NCBI RefSeq assembly: GCF_000018425.1
Contig: NC_010424.1
Location: 186,001-250,000 of the forward strand
Reading direction: 5' to 3'
Length of the DNA stretch: 64,000 nucleotides
DNA from: Candidatus Desulforudis audaxviator MP104C
GTDB taxonomy: Bacteria; Bacillota; Desulfotomaculia; Desulfotomaculales; Desulforudaceae
Shown: positions 1 through 5,483 of the stretch, piece after piece
Position numbering within the stretch: the first letter of the stretch is position 1
How the letters are laid out: each line of letters opens with the position of its first letter
Program-made: the position numbers and the translations under genes
The notes under the pieces: model-generated
The model's input: only the letters and a program-made list of their open reading frames with translations
What the model was told of the DNA's origin: nothing
The model's database searches: none

Positions 1-678
1 ACCGGGTTCGGGCTGGCGCGCGCCGAAAACACCTTCGAGGCGACCCAAAACGCCGACATCTTCGCCGAGGTTTCGGGTTTTCTGAAAGCGGCGGCGGTCA
101 ACCTGGCCAAGATCTCCGCGGACCTGCGCTTGCTGGCCTCCGGCCCCCGGGCGGGATTGGGCGAAATCAAGCTTCCACCGGTACAGGCCGGATCATCCAT
201 AATGCCGGGCAAGTACAATCCGGTTGTCCCGGAAATGGTCACGCAAACCGCCTTCCAGGTGATGGCCAACGACCTAGCCGTCAGTCTGGCCGCCGCGTCC
301 GGACAGCTTGAACTAAACGCCTTTTTGCCCCTGATTGCGCATAATCTTCTGCAGTCCTTCACTATCCTCACCGGCGCGGCGGGAACCCTGGCCGAGAAGT
401 GCATCCGGGGCATTACGGCCGACCCTGAGCGCTGCCGCCGGCTCCTAGACACCAGCCAGGGCGTGATCACCGCTTTTGTGCCCTACCTCGGCTATGAGCA
501 GGCTGCCGCAGTGGTGGAGCGGGCGATCCGCACCCAGAGGCCGCTGACCGAGATCCTGGTAGAGGAGGGGCTGTTTACCCTGGAAGAGGTGGAAGCCATC
601 ATGCGCCCCGAGGAACTTACCACCCCCGGTGTGGCCGGGGCGCGCTACTTTCAGCGGCAAAAGAGAACCGGGGATTAA
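1..678 (+). CDS. aspA: Aspartate ammonia-lyase, C-terminal part (cut by window edge)
   Basis: The frame is open from base 1 and gives the last 225 residues of an aspartase of the fumarase/aspartase superfamily, which interconverts L-aspartate with fumarate and ammonia. The superfamily signature GSSIMPGKYNP lies at bases 190-222, and the remaining residues form the helical core and C-terminal domain. The gene ends 38 bp before hydG and on the same strand, so it is probably co-transcribed with it. An aspartase-like gene beside hydEFG is a known genomic association in anaerobes, although its role there is not settled. Fumarase is a less likely reading. The start lies outside the window. Confidence 0.9.
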   Translation, partial: TGFGLARAENTFEATQNADIFAEVSGFLKAAAVNLAKISADLRLLASGPRAGLGEIKLPPVQAGSSIMPGKYNPVVPEMVTQTAFQVMANDLAVSLAAASGQLELNAFLPLIAHNLLQSFTILTGAAGTLAEKCIRGITADPERCRRLLDTSQGVITAFVPYLGYEQAAAVVERAIRTQRPLTEILVEEGLFTLEEVEAIMRPEELTTPGVAGARYFQRQKRTGD

Positions 679-716: not shown

Positions 717-2192
717 ATGCTGACCACTACGGAAAAAGCCTGGCTGGACGAACGCCTGGCATACATCAAGGCCTATGAGGCTTCCGAAAAAAGGCCGAGC
801 TTCGTGAGCGACGCGGAAATTGAGGCCGTCTTGAAACGCAAGGCCGATCCCGAGCGGCTGGAAGTGGAAGAGGTTCTAAGCAAGGCCAAGGAGCTTCACG
901 GACTAACCCCGGACGACGCAGCCGTATTGCTGAACAACCGGGACCCGGAACTCTGGGCGGAGATTTTTGCGACCGCGCACTGGATCAAGCAGGAGGTCTA
1001 CGGTAACCGGATCGTTCTGTTCGCCCCCCTCTACATTTCCAGTCCGTGCGTAAACAACTGCGCTTACTGCGGCTTCCGGCACAGCAATGATCAGGTCGCC
1101 AAAAAGACCCTTTCGCCGGCCGAACTGGAGGCCGAAGTAAAGGCGCTGATCACCAAGGGGCACAAACGGCTGATCGTGGTTTATGGTGAGCACCCGGCCA
1201 GCGACGTCGATTTTATGTGCCGGACCATCGAAACGATCTACGCCGTCAAAGAAGGCCGGGGCGAGATCCGCAGGGTCAACGTCAACGCCGCGCCCCTAAC
1301 CGTGGAAGAATACCGGCGGCTGAAAGAAGTCGGCATCGGTACCTATCAGGTGTTTCAGGAGACGTACCACCTGACCACCTACCGGAAGATGCACCCGGCG
1401 AACACCCTCAAGGGTTCGTTCCGCTGGCGGTTGTTCGCCCTGCACCGGGCGCAGGAAGCAGGAATCGACGACGTGGCCGTCGGCGCGCTCTTCGGGCTGT
1501 ATGACTGGCGCTTCGAGGTACTGGGCCTCCTTTACCACGCCCTGGACCTGGAGCGGGAGTTCGGCGTGGGCCCGCACACCATCTCGGTCCCCCGGCTGGA
1601 GCCGGCCTTGAACACCCCGCTGACCACCAGCTCACCCTACCGGGTGGCCGATGAGGACTTCAAGAAGGCGGTCACCGTACTGCGGTGCGCCGTGCCTTAC
1701 ACCGGTATCATCCTCACCTGCCGCGAAAAGCCCGCTTTGCGGCGGGAGGTCATCGCGCTGGGCGTCTCGCAGGTCGACGCCGGGTCCCGGACCGCCGTGG
1801 GCGGCTACGCGGAGATGGAACGGGAACACATCCCCGACCGCGAGCAGTTCCAACTGGCGGACACCCGCTCCCTGGACGAGTATATTCTGGAACTGTGCCG
1901 GGACGGGTACATCCCTTCCTTCTGCACGGCGGGATACCGTACCGGTCGCACCGGCTGCCACTTTATGTCCTTTGCCAAGCAGGGTTTGATTAAGAATTTC
2001 TGCCTGCCGAACGCCGTGCTCACTTTCAAGGAATACCTTCTCGACTACGCTTCGCCCGAAACCAGGGATGCCGGGGAAAAAACCATCGCCCGGCACGTCG
2101 AAGACTTTGCCCGCCGGATGCCGCAACGCGCCGAAAAACTGAAAGAGATGCTTTCCCGGATGGAGGGTGGCCAGCGTGACCTGTACTTTTAA
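717..2192 (+). CDS. hydG: [FeFe] hydrogenase H-cluster maturase HydG (tyrosine lyase)
   Basis: A 491-residue radical SAM enzyme that cleaves tyrosine to make the CO and CN ligands of the [FeFe]-hydrogenase H-cluster. The SAM-cluster motif CVNNCAYC gives C111, C115 and C118. Length and sequence fit HydG better than ThiH. The C-terminal auxiliary-cluster motif of HydG is CX2CX22C. Here it reads CTAGYRTGRTGC, so C403 and C429 are present but the middle position is G406, with an extra cysteine at 414. The ATG follows a strong AAGGAGG site. Its end overlaps the next small gene. The start and frame are clear, but the state of the second cluster is uncertain. Confidence 0.95.
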   Translation: MLTTTEKAWLDERLAYIKAYEASEKRPSFVSDAEIEAVLKRKADPERLEVEEVLSKAKELHGLTPDDAAVLLNNRDPELWAEIFATAHWIKQEVYGNRIVLFAPLYISSPCVNNCAYCGFRHSNDQVAKKTLSPAELEAEVKALITKGHKRLIVVYGEHPASDVDFMCRTIETIYAVKEGRGEIRRVNVNAAPLTVEEYRRLKEVGIGTYQVFQETYHLTTYRKMHPANTLKGSFRWRLFALHRAQEAGIDDVAVGALFGLYDWRFEVLGLLYHALDLEREFGVGPHTISVPRLEPALNTPLTTSSPYRVADEDFKKAVTVLRCAVPYTGIILTCREKPALRREVIALGVSQVDAGSRTAVGGYAEMEREHIPDREQFQLADTRSLDEYILELCRDGYIPSFCTAGYRTGRTGCHFMSFAKQGLIKNFCLPNAVLTFKEYLLDYASPETRDAGEKTIARHVEDFARRMPQRAEKLKEMLSRMEGGQRDLYF

Positions 2193-2642: not shown

Positions 2643-2659
2643 GGGGAGGGGTGGGTGGA

Positions 2660-3943
2660 TTGAACGAGACGCCGCGCGGGCAGCGCCTGCACCTGGCCAT
2701 TTTTGGGCGGCGCAACGCCGGGAAGTCCAGCCTGATCAACGCCCTGACCGGGCAGCAGGTGGCGATCGTGGCCGACGTGCCGGGGACCACCACCGATCCG
2801 GTAGCCAAGGCCATGGAACTTTTGCCTCTCGGCCCGGTGATGCTGATCGACACGGCGGGGCTGGACGATACGGGCGAGTTGGGCCGCTTGCGGGTCGAGA
2901 AGAGTCTGGACGTTTTGCAGAAGGCCGACCTGGTGCTCCTGGTCGTCGATCCGGGTCAGGGTTTCGGCGCGTGTGAGCAGGACGTGCTGGCGCATGTGCG
3001 GGCGCGGGACCTCCCCGTGATTGCCGTGATAAACAAGGCCGACCTGTACCCGGAGGGAGCGGCCGGAGAATGGCCCGAGCTGTCTTCCCTGCCCCGGATT
3101 CCGGTGAGCGCACGCACCGGGTACGGCATCGACCGCCTCAAGCGGCTGATCGTCGGGAGCGCTCCTCGGGACTGGACGCTTCCCACGATCGCCGGCGACC
3201 TTCTGGCCCCGGGGGACACGGTGGTCCTGGTCGTTCCCATCGATAAGGCGGCGCCGAAGGGCAGGCTGATTCTCCCGCAGCAGCAGGTCATCCGTGACGT
3301 CCTGGAGCACGACGCGGTGGCGGTCGTGGTCAAGGAGCGGGAACTCCGCTACGTCTTGAACCGGTTGGGCCACCCGCCGAAGCTGGTGGTGACCGACGCC
3401 TCCGTCTACCAGCGCGCGGTCGCCGACACCCCGCCCGAAGTGTTGCTGACGTCCTTCTCCATCCTGTTCGCGCGGTACAAGGGTGATCTGGAGACCCTGG
3501 TGGCGGGGGCCGCCGCGGTCGGCGGACTCCGTCCGGGAGACCGGATCCTGATCGCCGAAGCCTGCACGCACCACCCGATCGCGGACGACATCGGCCGGGT
3601 GAAGATCCCCCGGTGGCTGCGGCAGGCGGCGGGCGGGGAACTGCATTTCGACGTCATGTCCGGCGGCGGACCCTTGCCTTCGAACCTGGGGGATTACCGG
3701 CTGGTTGTCCACTGCGGGGCTTGCATGCTCAACCGCCGGGAAATGCTCTCGCGGATTATGCAGGCGCAGGAGGCCGGGGTGCCCATCGTCAACTACGGCG
3801 TGCTGATTGCGCAAGTGCAGGGGGTGCTGGAGCGTGCGCTCTCGCCCTTCCCGGCGGTGCTGGAGCGGCTCGGGGCGGCGATGCAAACCTTTGACGACGC
3901 GGATGTGGTGCCGCGCCGGGTTCCATTCGGGCGGGGGGAGTGA
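2660..3943 (+). CDS. hydF: [FeFe] hydrogenase H-cluster maturation GTPase HydF
   Basis: A 427-residue GTPase and scaffold that carries the diiron precursor made by HydE and HydG to apo-hydrogenase. The N-terminal G domain has the P-loop GRRNAGKS at residues 16-23. The C-terminal cluster domain has C302 (ACTHHP) and the HCGAC motif with C352 and C355, the expected Fe-S ligands. The TTG at 2660 is chosen because it lies 10 bases after a GGAGG site and gives MNETPRG, the usual HydF N-terminus; the GTG at 2651 would touch the ribosome-binding site. It overlaps hydE by four bases. Confidence 0.95.
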   Translation: MNETPRGQRLHLAIFGRRNAGKSSLINALTGQQVAIVADVPGTTTDPVAKAMELLPLGPVMLIDTAGLDDTGELGRLRVEKSLDVLQKADLVLLVVDPGQGFGACEQDVLAHVRARDLPVIAVINKADLYPEGAAGEWPELSSLPRIPVSARTGYGIDRLKRLIVGSAPRDWTLPTIAGDLLAPGDTVVLVVPIDKAAPKGRLILPQQQVIRDVLEHDAVAVVVKERELRYVLNRLGHPPKLVVTDASVYQRAVADTPPEVLLTSFSILFARYKGDLETLVAGAAAVGGLRPGDRILIAEACTHHPIADDIGRVKIPRWLRQAAGGELHFDVMSGGGPLPSNLGDYRLVVHCGACMLNRREMLSRIMQAQEAGVPIVNYGVLIAQVQGVLERALSPFPAVLERLGAAMQTFDDADVVPRRVPFGRGE

Positions 3944-5061
3944 AACCGGTGCGAGGGCCTGCCAAGAAAGTGTCGGCGGGGGCGGAAGGCCGCCGCGTGC
4001 CGGAGCCGGACGAGATCCTGGCGCTGCTCAGGGCGGAGGGCACCCAGGCCGAGGCCGGCCGTGTGCCGACTCGGGAAGAGATCGTGGCCTTGTTGACGGC
4101 CGGGGATGCGGACACCGACGCCCTCTACCGCGCCGCCGACGCGGTGCGTGCCGGGCACGTGGGTGACACGGTGCACCTGCGGGCGATTATCGAGTTCTCT
4201 AACCACTGCGTACAAAACTGCCTGTACTGCGGCCTGCGGCGCAATAACCGGCGCCTCTTCCGGTACCGGATGAGCCCGGATGAAATCTTCGCCGCCGCCG
4301 CCGTGGCCCGGGATCAAGGTTACCGGACCGTCGTGCTCCAGAGCGGCGAGGACCCCGGTTACCCGACATCCGAACTGGCGCGGTTGGTCCACCGTCTGAA
4401 GGATCAACTCGACGTCGCGGTCACCCTCTCTGTGGGCGAGCTTCCCCGGGTGGTCTACCGCGAGCTGCGGACCGCCGGCGCCGACCGGTACCTTCTCAAG
4501 CACGAAACGGCCGACCCGGCGCTCTTCGCGCGCCTGCGGCCGGGCACCACGCTCGCCGGGCGCCTGGAAAAGCTGGTCTGGCTGCGGGAGTTGGGTTACC
4601 AGGTGGGGAGCGGGAACATGGTCGGGCTGCCGGGCCAGACGGTGGAAAGCCTGGCCGCCGACGTCATCCTGCTGCGGGAACTGGAGGTCGAAATGGCCGG
4701 CATCGGTCCCTTCATCCCGCACCCGGACACGCCGCTGGCCGGCGCCCCCCCCGGCCCGCTGGAACTGACCCTGGATGTGCTGGCCGTGACGCGGCTCGTA
4801 CTGCCCCGCGCGCACCTGCCGGCCACCACCGCGATGAGTGTGCTGCACCCGGAAGGAAGGCAGCGCGCCCTCGCCTGCGGGGCCAACGTGGTGATGCCGG
4901 ATCTGACCCCGGAGCCTTACCGGCGGCACTACGAGATCTACCCGGGCCGGACGGCGGCTCCGGTTGGGGCGCCGCGTTCGTTTGCCGCTTGGCGGGAGAC
5001 GCTGGCTGGGCTGGGACGCCCGGTGGATTCCGGCTACGGGCACGGTCCCGGGCGAAACTGA
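3940..5061 (+). CDS. hydE: [FeFe] hydrogenase H-cluster maturase HydE (radical SAM)
   Basis: A 373-residue radical SAM protein of the biotin-synthase-like group, needed for assembly of the diiron subcluster of [FeFe] hydrogenase. The SAM-cluster motif CVQNCLYC gives C90, C94 and C97, followed by the barrel. The GTG start overlaps the hydF stop, which indicates translational coupling. The protein is slightly longer than typical HydE (about 350 residues) because of an N-terminal helical extension before residue 60. No hydrogenase structural gene is visible in the window, so the substrate enzyme must be encoded elsewhere. Confidence 0.95.
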   Translation: MKPVRGPAKKVSAGAEGRRVPEPDEILALLRAEGTQAEAGRVPTREEIVALLTAGDADTDALYRAADAVRAGHVGDTVHLRAIIEFSNHCVQNCLYCGLRRNNRRLFRYRMSPDEIFAAAAVARDQGYRTVVLQSGEDPGYPTSELARLVHRLKDQLDVAVTLSVGELPRVVYRELRTAGADRYLLKHETADPALFARLRPGTTLAGRLEKLVWLRELGYQVGSGNMVGLPGQTVESLAADVILLRELEVEMAGIGPFIPHPDTPLAGAPPGPLELTLDVLAVTRLVLPRAHLPATTAMSVLHPEGRQRALACGANVVMPDLTPEPYRRHYEIYPGRTAAPVGAPRSFAAWRETLAGLGRPVDSGYGHGPGRN

Positions 5062-5156
5062 AAGGCATGGTCAACAATAAGCCATACCCGGCATCACACG
5101 CCTGTCAATTCGAAAACGAACCAATCGACACTTATCTAAACTTATCTAAGGAGAGG

Positions 5157-5483
5157 ATGTGGAGGAACATCGGTATCGTGGTCCAGACCGCGGACGCCGA
5201 GCAGGCGTGGAGTGCATTCCGGCTGGCGAACCGGGCGTTGGATGAAGGGCACGAGGTCAGGGTGTTTTTGCTCAGCCAGGGGGTGCTGGCCGGGGACTTG
5301 GGGGAGGAGCCCTGCAACGTCAATAAGCAGATGCGGATCTTCATCGCCAACGACGGCCAACTCTGGGCCTGCGGGAAGTGCCTGGCCCTGCACGAGAAGG
5401 AGGCGGGCGAACTCTGCCCGTTCGGGGGACTGAAGGACTTACTCGAACTTGTGGAGTGGGCGGACAAGCTCCTGACCTTTTAG
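5157..5483 (+). CDS. DsrE/DsrF-like small protein
   Basis: A 108-residue protein with the DsrE/F fold pattern: MWRNIGIVVQTADAEQAWSA, then a central strand EVRVFLLSQGV and the cysteine-containing segment ACGKCLAL, which could hold the reactive cysteine. Members of this family bind or relay sulfur, but the family alone does not fix the substrate. The ATG at 5157 follows AAGGAGAGG. The open frame extends upstream into hydE but that part is not DsrE-like. The leader has a direct repeat ACTTATCTAA just before the ribosome-binding site. It is the last gene of the hyd group and is 95 bp from hydE, so co-transcription is plausible but not shown. Confidence 0.75.
   Translation: MWRNIGIVVQTADAEQAWSAFRLANRALDEGHEVRVFLLSQGVLAGDLGEEPCNVNKQMRIFIANDGQLWACGKCLALHEKEAGELCPFGGLKDLLELVEWADKLLTF

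Follow-up and report, generated by a model that had tools for sequence, protein, structure and literature searches.

The window analysed here, a 64,000-nucleotide stretch of the Candidatus Desulforudis audaxviator MP104C genome, encodes a HydG maturase that has glycine at position 406, the site of the second of three auxiliary-cluster cysteines. The missing cysteine is the mark of a subfamily, not a defect. On balance, the protein is probably a working enzyme of an old subfamily, group II HydG, in which the second auxiliary-cluster thiolate has been lost or moved, with relocation to C414 in the present case. Re-reading of the codons bears out the residues named in the original prediction (C403, G406 encoded by GGA, C414 and C429), and its statement that hydE and hydF are otherwise intact agrees with the complete motifs of both proteins (Table 1).

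Table 1. Coordinates, in the window, of hydG, its cluster-binding residues and the neighbouring genes.
Feature	Position	Strand	Basis or remark
aspA-like ammonia-lyase gene, 3' part	1..678	+	profile match; usual neighbour of hyd genes according to the available passages of PMC11736057
hydG	717..2192	+	491-aa ORF, group II HydG, C-terminal cysteines C-x10-C-x14-C
Radical SAM CX3CX2C (C111, C115, C118)	1047..1070	+	invariant in 143/143 aligned HydG
H287, equivalent of 4wcx His265	1575..1577	+	His in 143/143 and in 115/115 (second set)
C403, first auxiliary-cluster cysteine	1923..1925 (TGC)	+	kept in 143/143 HydG
G406 (GGA), at site of second cluster cysteine	1932..1934	+	codon read and alignment to 4wcx
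C414, candidate replacement ligand	1956..1958 (TGC)	+	start of a predicted helix (DSSP on model); alignment
C429, third auxiliary-cluster cysteine	2001..2003 (TGC)	+	kept in 143/143 HydG
Unannotated small protein, 131 aa	2167..2562	+	homologue family beside variant hydG; invariant Arg R52
hydF	2651..3943	+	CxH...HCxxC intact
hydE	3940..5061	+	CX3CX2C intact

The protein scores 496 bits against NCBIfam TIGR03955 (rSAM_HydG), above the cut-off of 312, and 261 bits against the ThiH profile TIGR02351, below the cut-off of 380, which rules out a misannotated ThiH. Its gene lies in a hyd maturation context, with hydF, hydE and the aspA-like gene as neighbours; a gene for a DsrE/DsrF-like protein directly follows hydE (window 4989-5483, + strand). 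The AF2 model (pLDDT 94.2) matches the solved Thermoanaerobacter italicus HydG (4wcx) with Z 57 and 1.1 Å over 453 residues, its confidence being lowest around the cluster loop (block means of 75-83 over residues 401-430). Alignment to 4wcx pairs residue 406 with the second Cys of CTACYRMGRTG. The window protein reads C403-x2-G406-x22-C429 in place of the canonical CX2CX22C, and has T409 (codon ACC) where the C-x5-C-x19-C form has Cys. His265 of 4wcx, the ligand of the dangler iron, maps to H287 by alignment. The predicted function is cleavage of tyrosine to CO and CN, with an auxiliary cluster carrying a dangler iron.

Loss of the second cysteine is not confined to this genome. A scan of 84,980 species, with one genome each, returned 100 loci with a non-Cys residue at 406, including Syntrophomonas, Thermosyntropha, Clostridium tyrobutyricum, Ammonifex, Fermentibacteria and Planctomycetota; the scan pattern joins the HydG motif to a codon 406 whose first base is not T, leaving Ser and other T-codons outside. 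Of 398 genomes sampled from the window's phylum, 195 have the general HydG motif and 21 its non-Cys form, and at least two further variants, with IM where the pattern has FM, stand outside this count. The motif has no match in the viral contigs searched. Removal of 25 partial and 36 duplicate sequences from 204 motif hits left an alignment of 143 unique full-length HydG proteins, enriched for variants by design and not a random sample. It shows Gly406 to be common to many relatives: residue 406 is Gly in 57 of the 89 unique variants, Asp in 31 and Ala in one.

Most variants carry another cysteine nearby. C409 is present in 64 of the 89 variants versus none of the 54 sequences with C406; C414 is found in ten variants (three of them with C409 too), C418 in two and C420 in one. 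The original prediction proposed that the enzyme uses C414 or other ligands, and this is the best reading because most variants carry a replacement Cys, while the third ligand itself remains unproven. In the mechanism that we propose, tyrosine would still be cleaved and the Fe(CO)2CN unit built on the auxiliary cluster. In the lineage of the window, this cluster would be held by C403, C429 and, as third thiolate, C414 (C-x10-C-x14-C); in sister lineages, C409 would be the third thiolate (C-x5-C-x19-C).

The main rival to ligand relocation holds that a third protein thiolate is dispensable, with C403, C429 and a non-Cys ligand (water, free cysteine, or a histidine or aspartate from the loop of residues 406-415) sufficing for the cluster and C409 and C414 as bystanders. 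We consider it unlikely, if well short of negligible. It gains from the 15 of 89 variants with no Cys in 404-428, which also count against relocation: eight are of a PVC-type form, and all seven others have His at 414 or 415, compared with 22 of the 74 variants with a loop Cys and five of the 54 sequences with C406. One type without a loop Cys is that of Clostridium acetireducens. Asp at 406 in 31 variants and the presence of C414 alongside C406 in relatives (see below) also speak for it. Set against this, a loop Cys is kept in 74 of the 89 variants, and the cases with His represent about two lineages.

The genomic company of the variants bears on the same choice. We examined 56 variant genomes, in two sets of 50 that partly overlap. 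A single HydG motif is present in 45 of 50 genomes of the first set; in the second, which leaves aside four genomes already known to hold two HydG motifs, 46 of 50 give a single HydG protein match at E 1e-60, and two of the other four have a second match that is merely 30-31% identical. A second HydG accompanies none of 45 variants with a Cys in 406-427 versus six of 11 without a loop Cys (Fisher p 1.4e-5, related genomes counted apart), and all six second copies carry C406. This pattern is in keeping with the loop having to supply a third thiolate at some position and argues against dispensability, whereas the five of 11 genomes without a loop Cys in which no second HydG was seen favour dispensability and weigh against relocation. 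Four of the six two-HydG genomes, from Planctomycetota, Lentisphaerae and a Deltaproteobacterium MAG, pair their C406-bearing copy with a HydG reading CTAGYR[EQ]GRTGA and FCIANG, possibly a paralogue of other use; one further genome (L100) showed one motif.

To place the window protein, we built a HydG tree without columns 403-416. It separates a branch with C406 only from the group II branch, which comprises all variants plus some C406 proteins, and requires at least five changes between Cys and non-Cys at 406 (six in an enlarged set). The two subgroups differ widely outside the cluster motif as well (Q211/I, R238/H, P193/A and V155/E in window numbering). Eight relatives in or near the window's family, two of them in its own genus, have both C406 and C414 (CTSCYR...C414), and six others share G406 and C414. 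The HydG of Ammonifex thiophilus also combines G406 with C414. Since the closest HydG to that of the window is a CTSC protein (80% identical), the state of position 406 changed recently here; C414 occurs in both forms. Judged from these sequences, C414 owes its origin to more than replacement of C406, being present in all eight CTSC relatives that keep C406. Within a wider clade of 22 rows, a C409 protein and a PVC-type branch are without C414. A single clade of CTSC relatives is neither established nor rejected (AU p 0.296), and one and two gain or loss events at C406 are indistinguishable. We do not take C409 or C414 as proven compensation on the tree, where relatedness-corrected pairs give no significant association.

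One variant HydG, that of Syntrophomonas wolfei, has been put to use in making active hydrogenase. According to the available passages of PMC5626996, its hydE, hydG and hydF were cloned together with a 348-bp ORF in E. coli BL21(DE3) and yielded active Hyd1ABC, the recombinant hydrogenase reducing NAD+ with H2 at 94.5 U/mg. The two primers given there have exact matches in the S. wolfei genome, one where the hydG ORF starts and the other where the hydE ORF ends, and the small ORF lies in the stretch that they bracket. The HydG so enclosed reads CTADYRCGRTGGCFM, with D406 and C409. Since this HydG lies in a construct that gave active hydrogenase, absence of the second cysteine need not prevent maturation, at least when Asp406 and Cys409 are present; the passages describe no HydG-less control. 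As support for relocation to C414, the E. coli evidence is limited in that it concerns an Asp/C409 variant with a small ORF in the same construct. The idea that many functional HydG proteins have glycine at this position thus holds for occurrence, and proven function was found for the Asp variant only.

Variability of the HydG C-terminal motif is partly known already. The passages of PMC9431212 available to us state that the motif varies among HydG proteins, that of C. autoethanogenum being C-x(5)-C-x(19)-C, that activation in vitro without HydG amounts to about 1%, and, citing earlier work, that C. acetobutylicum cannot do without the canonical motif, mutation of which abolishes maturation; the last result counts against a dispensable third thiolate. 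The literature searched, in which motif spellings were judged by title, gave no account of a C-x10-C-x14-C HydG, nor of C406 and C414 occurring together in relatives from the same genus, and searches on the HydG of Desulforudis and on HydG sequence or phylogeny returned no paper on this motif form.

Downstream of the window hydG lies a small gene whose homologues accompany variants in particular. A homologue adjoins hydG on the same strand at 98 of 132 variant loci versus none of 55 C406 loci, counting loci whose downstream flank extends 700 bp or more (17 short-flank loci dropped, duplicates kept); at eight other variant loci it lies elsewhere in the locus, and at 26 it is missing. In the 398-genome phylum sample, the small gene is present in 26 genomes. 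Genome-wide it occurs in 19 of 23 variant genomes versus six of the 174 remaining genomes with the HydG motif (Fisher p 1e-17, relatedness ignored), where the six include one genome whose HydG was unseen (G281); the genome G345 has a fragment and lacks a HydG motif. Among 60 relatives of the window genome, all eight variants have it and none of the 42 with C406 (eight CTSC and 34 others), the other ten offering no readable HydG motif. On the tree, the small gene is limited to group II (57 of 85 R238 rows, 0 of 30 H238 rows).

These associations raise a further explanation, in which the small protein makes good the lack of C406: it would bind or complete the auxiliary cluster, or bring in iron or cysteine. 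It is favoured by the locus, genome and relative counts above and by the co-cloning of the small ORF in the S. wolfei construct; we nevertheless judge it decidedly improbable. The family has no conserved Cys, its sole invariant residue being Arg R52. On the tree, the small gene stands with C406 in five rows, is missing from 17 variant rows and needs about 17 changes, and relatedness-corrected pairs give no significant association with position 406 (median p 0.5). A check of 31 variant genomes, the majority picked for having no adjacent copy, found none in 21. A strict substitute for C406 is ruled out both by variants without the small gene and by five C406 genomes that have it.

The AF2 model of the small protein consists of a helix, four strands and a helix (mean pLDDT 83, core about 95) and resembles GAF and roadblock domains with Z of at most 9.8, a likeness that may reflect only a common arrangement. 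No Pfam or NCBIfam family was matched by more than two of 59 members at E 0.1, PDB sequences gave nothing better than E 0.2, and Foldseek found no match to the model under E 0.001. The S. wolfei ORF is noted in the available passages of PMC5626996 only as an ORF without known domains, and the small gene is absent among the matches listed (titles and abstract starts) in a literature search for extra maturation proteins. On the basis of co-occurrence, the small gene is possibly an overlooked maturation partner. As a bolder and decidedly speculative proposal, group II HydG would be a distinct mechanistic class whose auxiliary cluster has an open or movable third-ligand site, assembly or turnover would in most members rely on the small GAF/roadblock-like protein encoded beside hydG as a fourth H-cluster maturation component, and the lineages with both C406 and C414 (CTSC) would have dispensed with it.

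We return to the preferred reading of a working enzyme with a relocated ligand and weigh it against one in which the window HydG is degenerate or makes a changed product, such as free CO and CN only, with no synthon built. One ligand cysteine is indeed missing, and the six genomes pairing a variant without loop Cys with a C406 HydG suggest that some variants may have another role. This reading is nonetheless very improbable, because the window HydG has C414, shows low dN/dS (0.03-0.25 across seven HydG pairs, the window gene being in two of the pairs) and stands alone, as far as we found, in a genome that encodes several HydA proteins, and because a variant relative gave active hydrogenase in E. 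coli. The altered function entertained in the original prediction finds no support: the last two grounds apply to it too, and the HydF and HydE motifs are intact. The PF02906 [FeFe]-hydrogenase domain is present in 49 of 50 variant genomes, and the window's own genome, a single contig of 2,349,476 bases in which we found no second HydG, has seven stretches of it; a simple pattern search found all three H-cluster motifs in three of its ORFs. One HydA gene, upstream of the window at about 175.3-177.1 kb of the contig (L212:5310-7075), is apparently frameshifted and split over two frames, with intact copies adjoining.

[NiFe]-hydrogenase matches are also present in this genome, and hydrogen metabolism alone is therefore no proof of HydG function; a literature search found no paper on growth of the cultivated strain on H2. 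One [NiFe] large subunit, outside the window at 1095121-1096401 of the contig (L243), reads QRICGV-TGA-PISHG, where an in-frame TGA takes the place of the second cysteine codon in the N-terminal motif L1, and a second match (1741489-1741725) also has one in-frame TGA in the same part of the profile. In known NiFeSe enzymes, selenocysteine lies in the C-terminal motif, and the TGA of the first subunit possibly encodes selenocysteine at an unusual place.

That codon 406 is misread or misassembled is practically out of the question, being ruled out by relatives with 70-78% identical HydG that have Gly406 in other codons (GGT, GGC) and by the residues that travel with it among the nearest relatives (A405 and G410 with G406, S405 and A/E410 with C406). 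The dN/dS values given above also speak against an error. G406 is inherited and common to relatives.

Three-cysteine ligation is held essential for Fe(CO)2CN assembly, and natural enzymes without one of these cysteines probe that site; as some have no nearby replacement Cys, what the site requires is open to direct experiment. Genome surveys that demand known motifs can overlook such HydG genes. In the available passages of PMC9431212, HydG is reported as undetected in five of eight acetogens, possibly cases in point. The small gene beside hydG offers a specific lead to a possible maturation partner that has escaped notice.

Compared with canonical T. italicus HydG (4wcx; CX2CX22C), the window HydG is 54% identical, has the same fold and shares the radical SAM motif, the dangler His and the first and third auxiliary Cys; it differs in the Gly at the second auxiliary Cys, the extra C414, the Q211/R238 residue set of the variants' branch and the small gene after hydG. 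ThiH (2-iminoacetate synthase) has the tyrosine lyase fold in common with it (7pd1, Z 42.9), but the match ends at residue 402 and the alignment gives no counterpart of H287. The HydG proteins of C. autoethanogenum, compared by published motif alone (PMC9431212, in part), and of S. wolfei (PMC5626996, in part), which belongs to the same tree branch, are likewise without the second cysteine of CX2C. Both supply C409, whereas the window HydG has T409 and C414; at 406, the S. wolfei protein has Asp and the window protein Gly.
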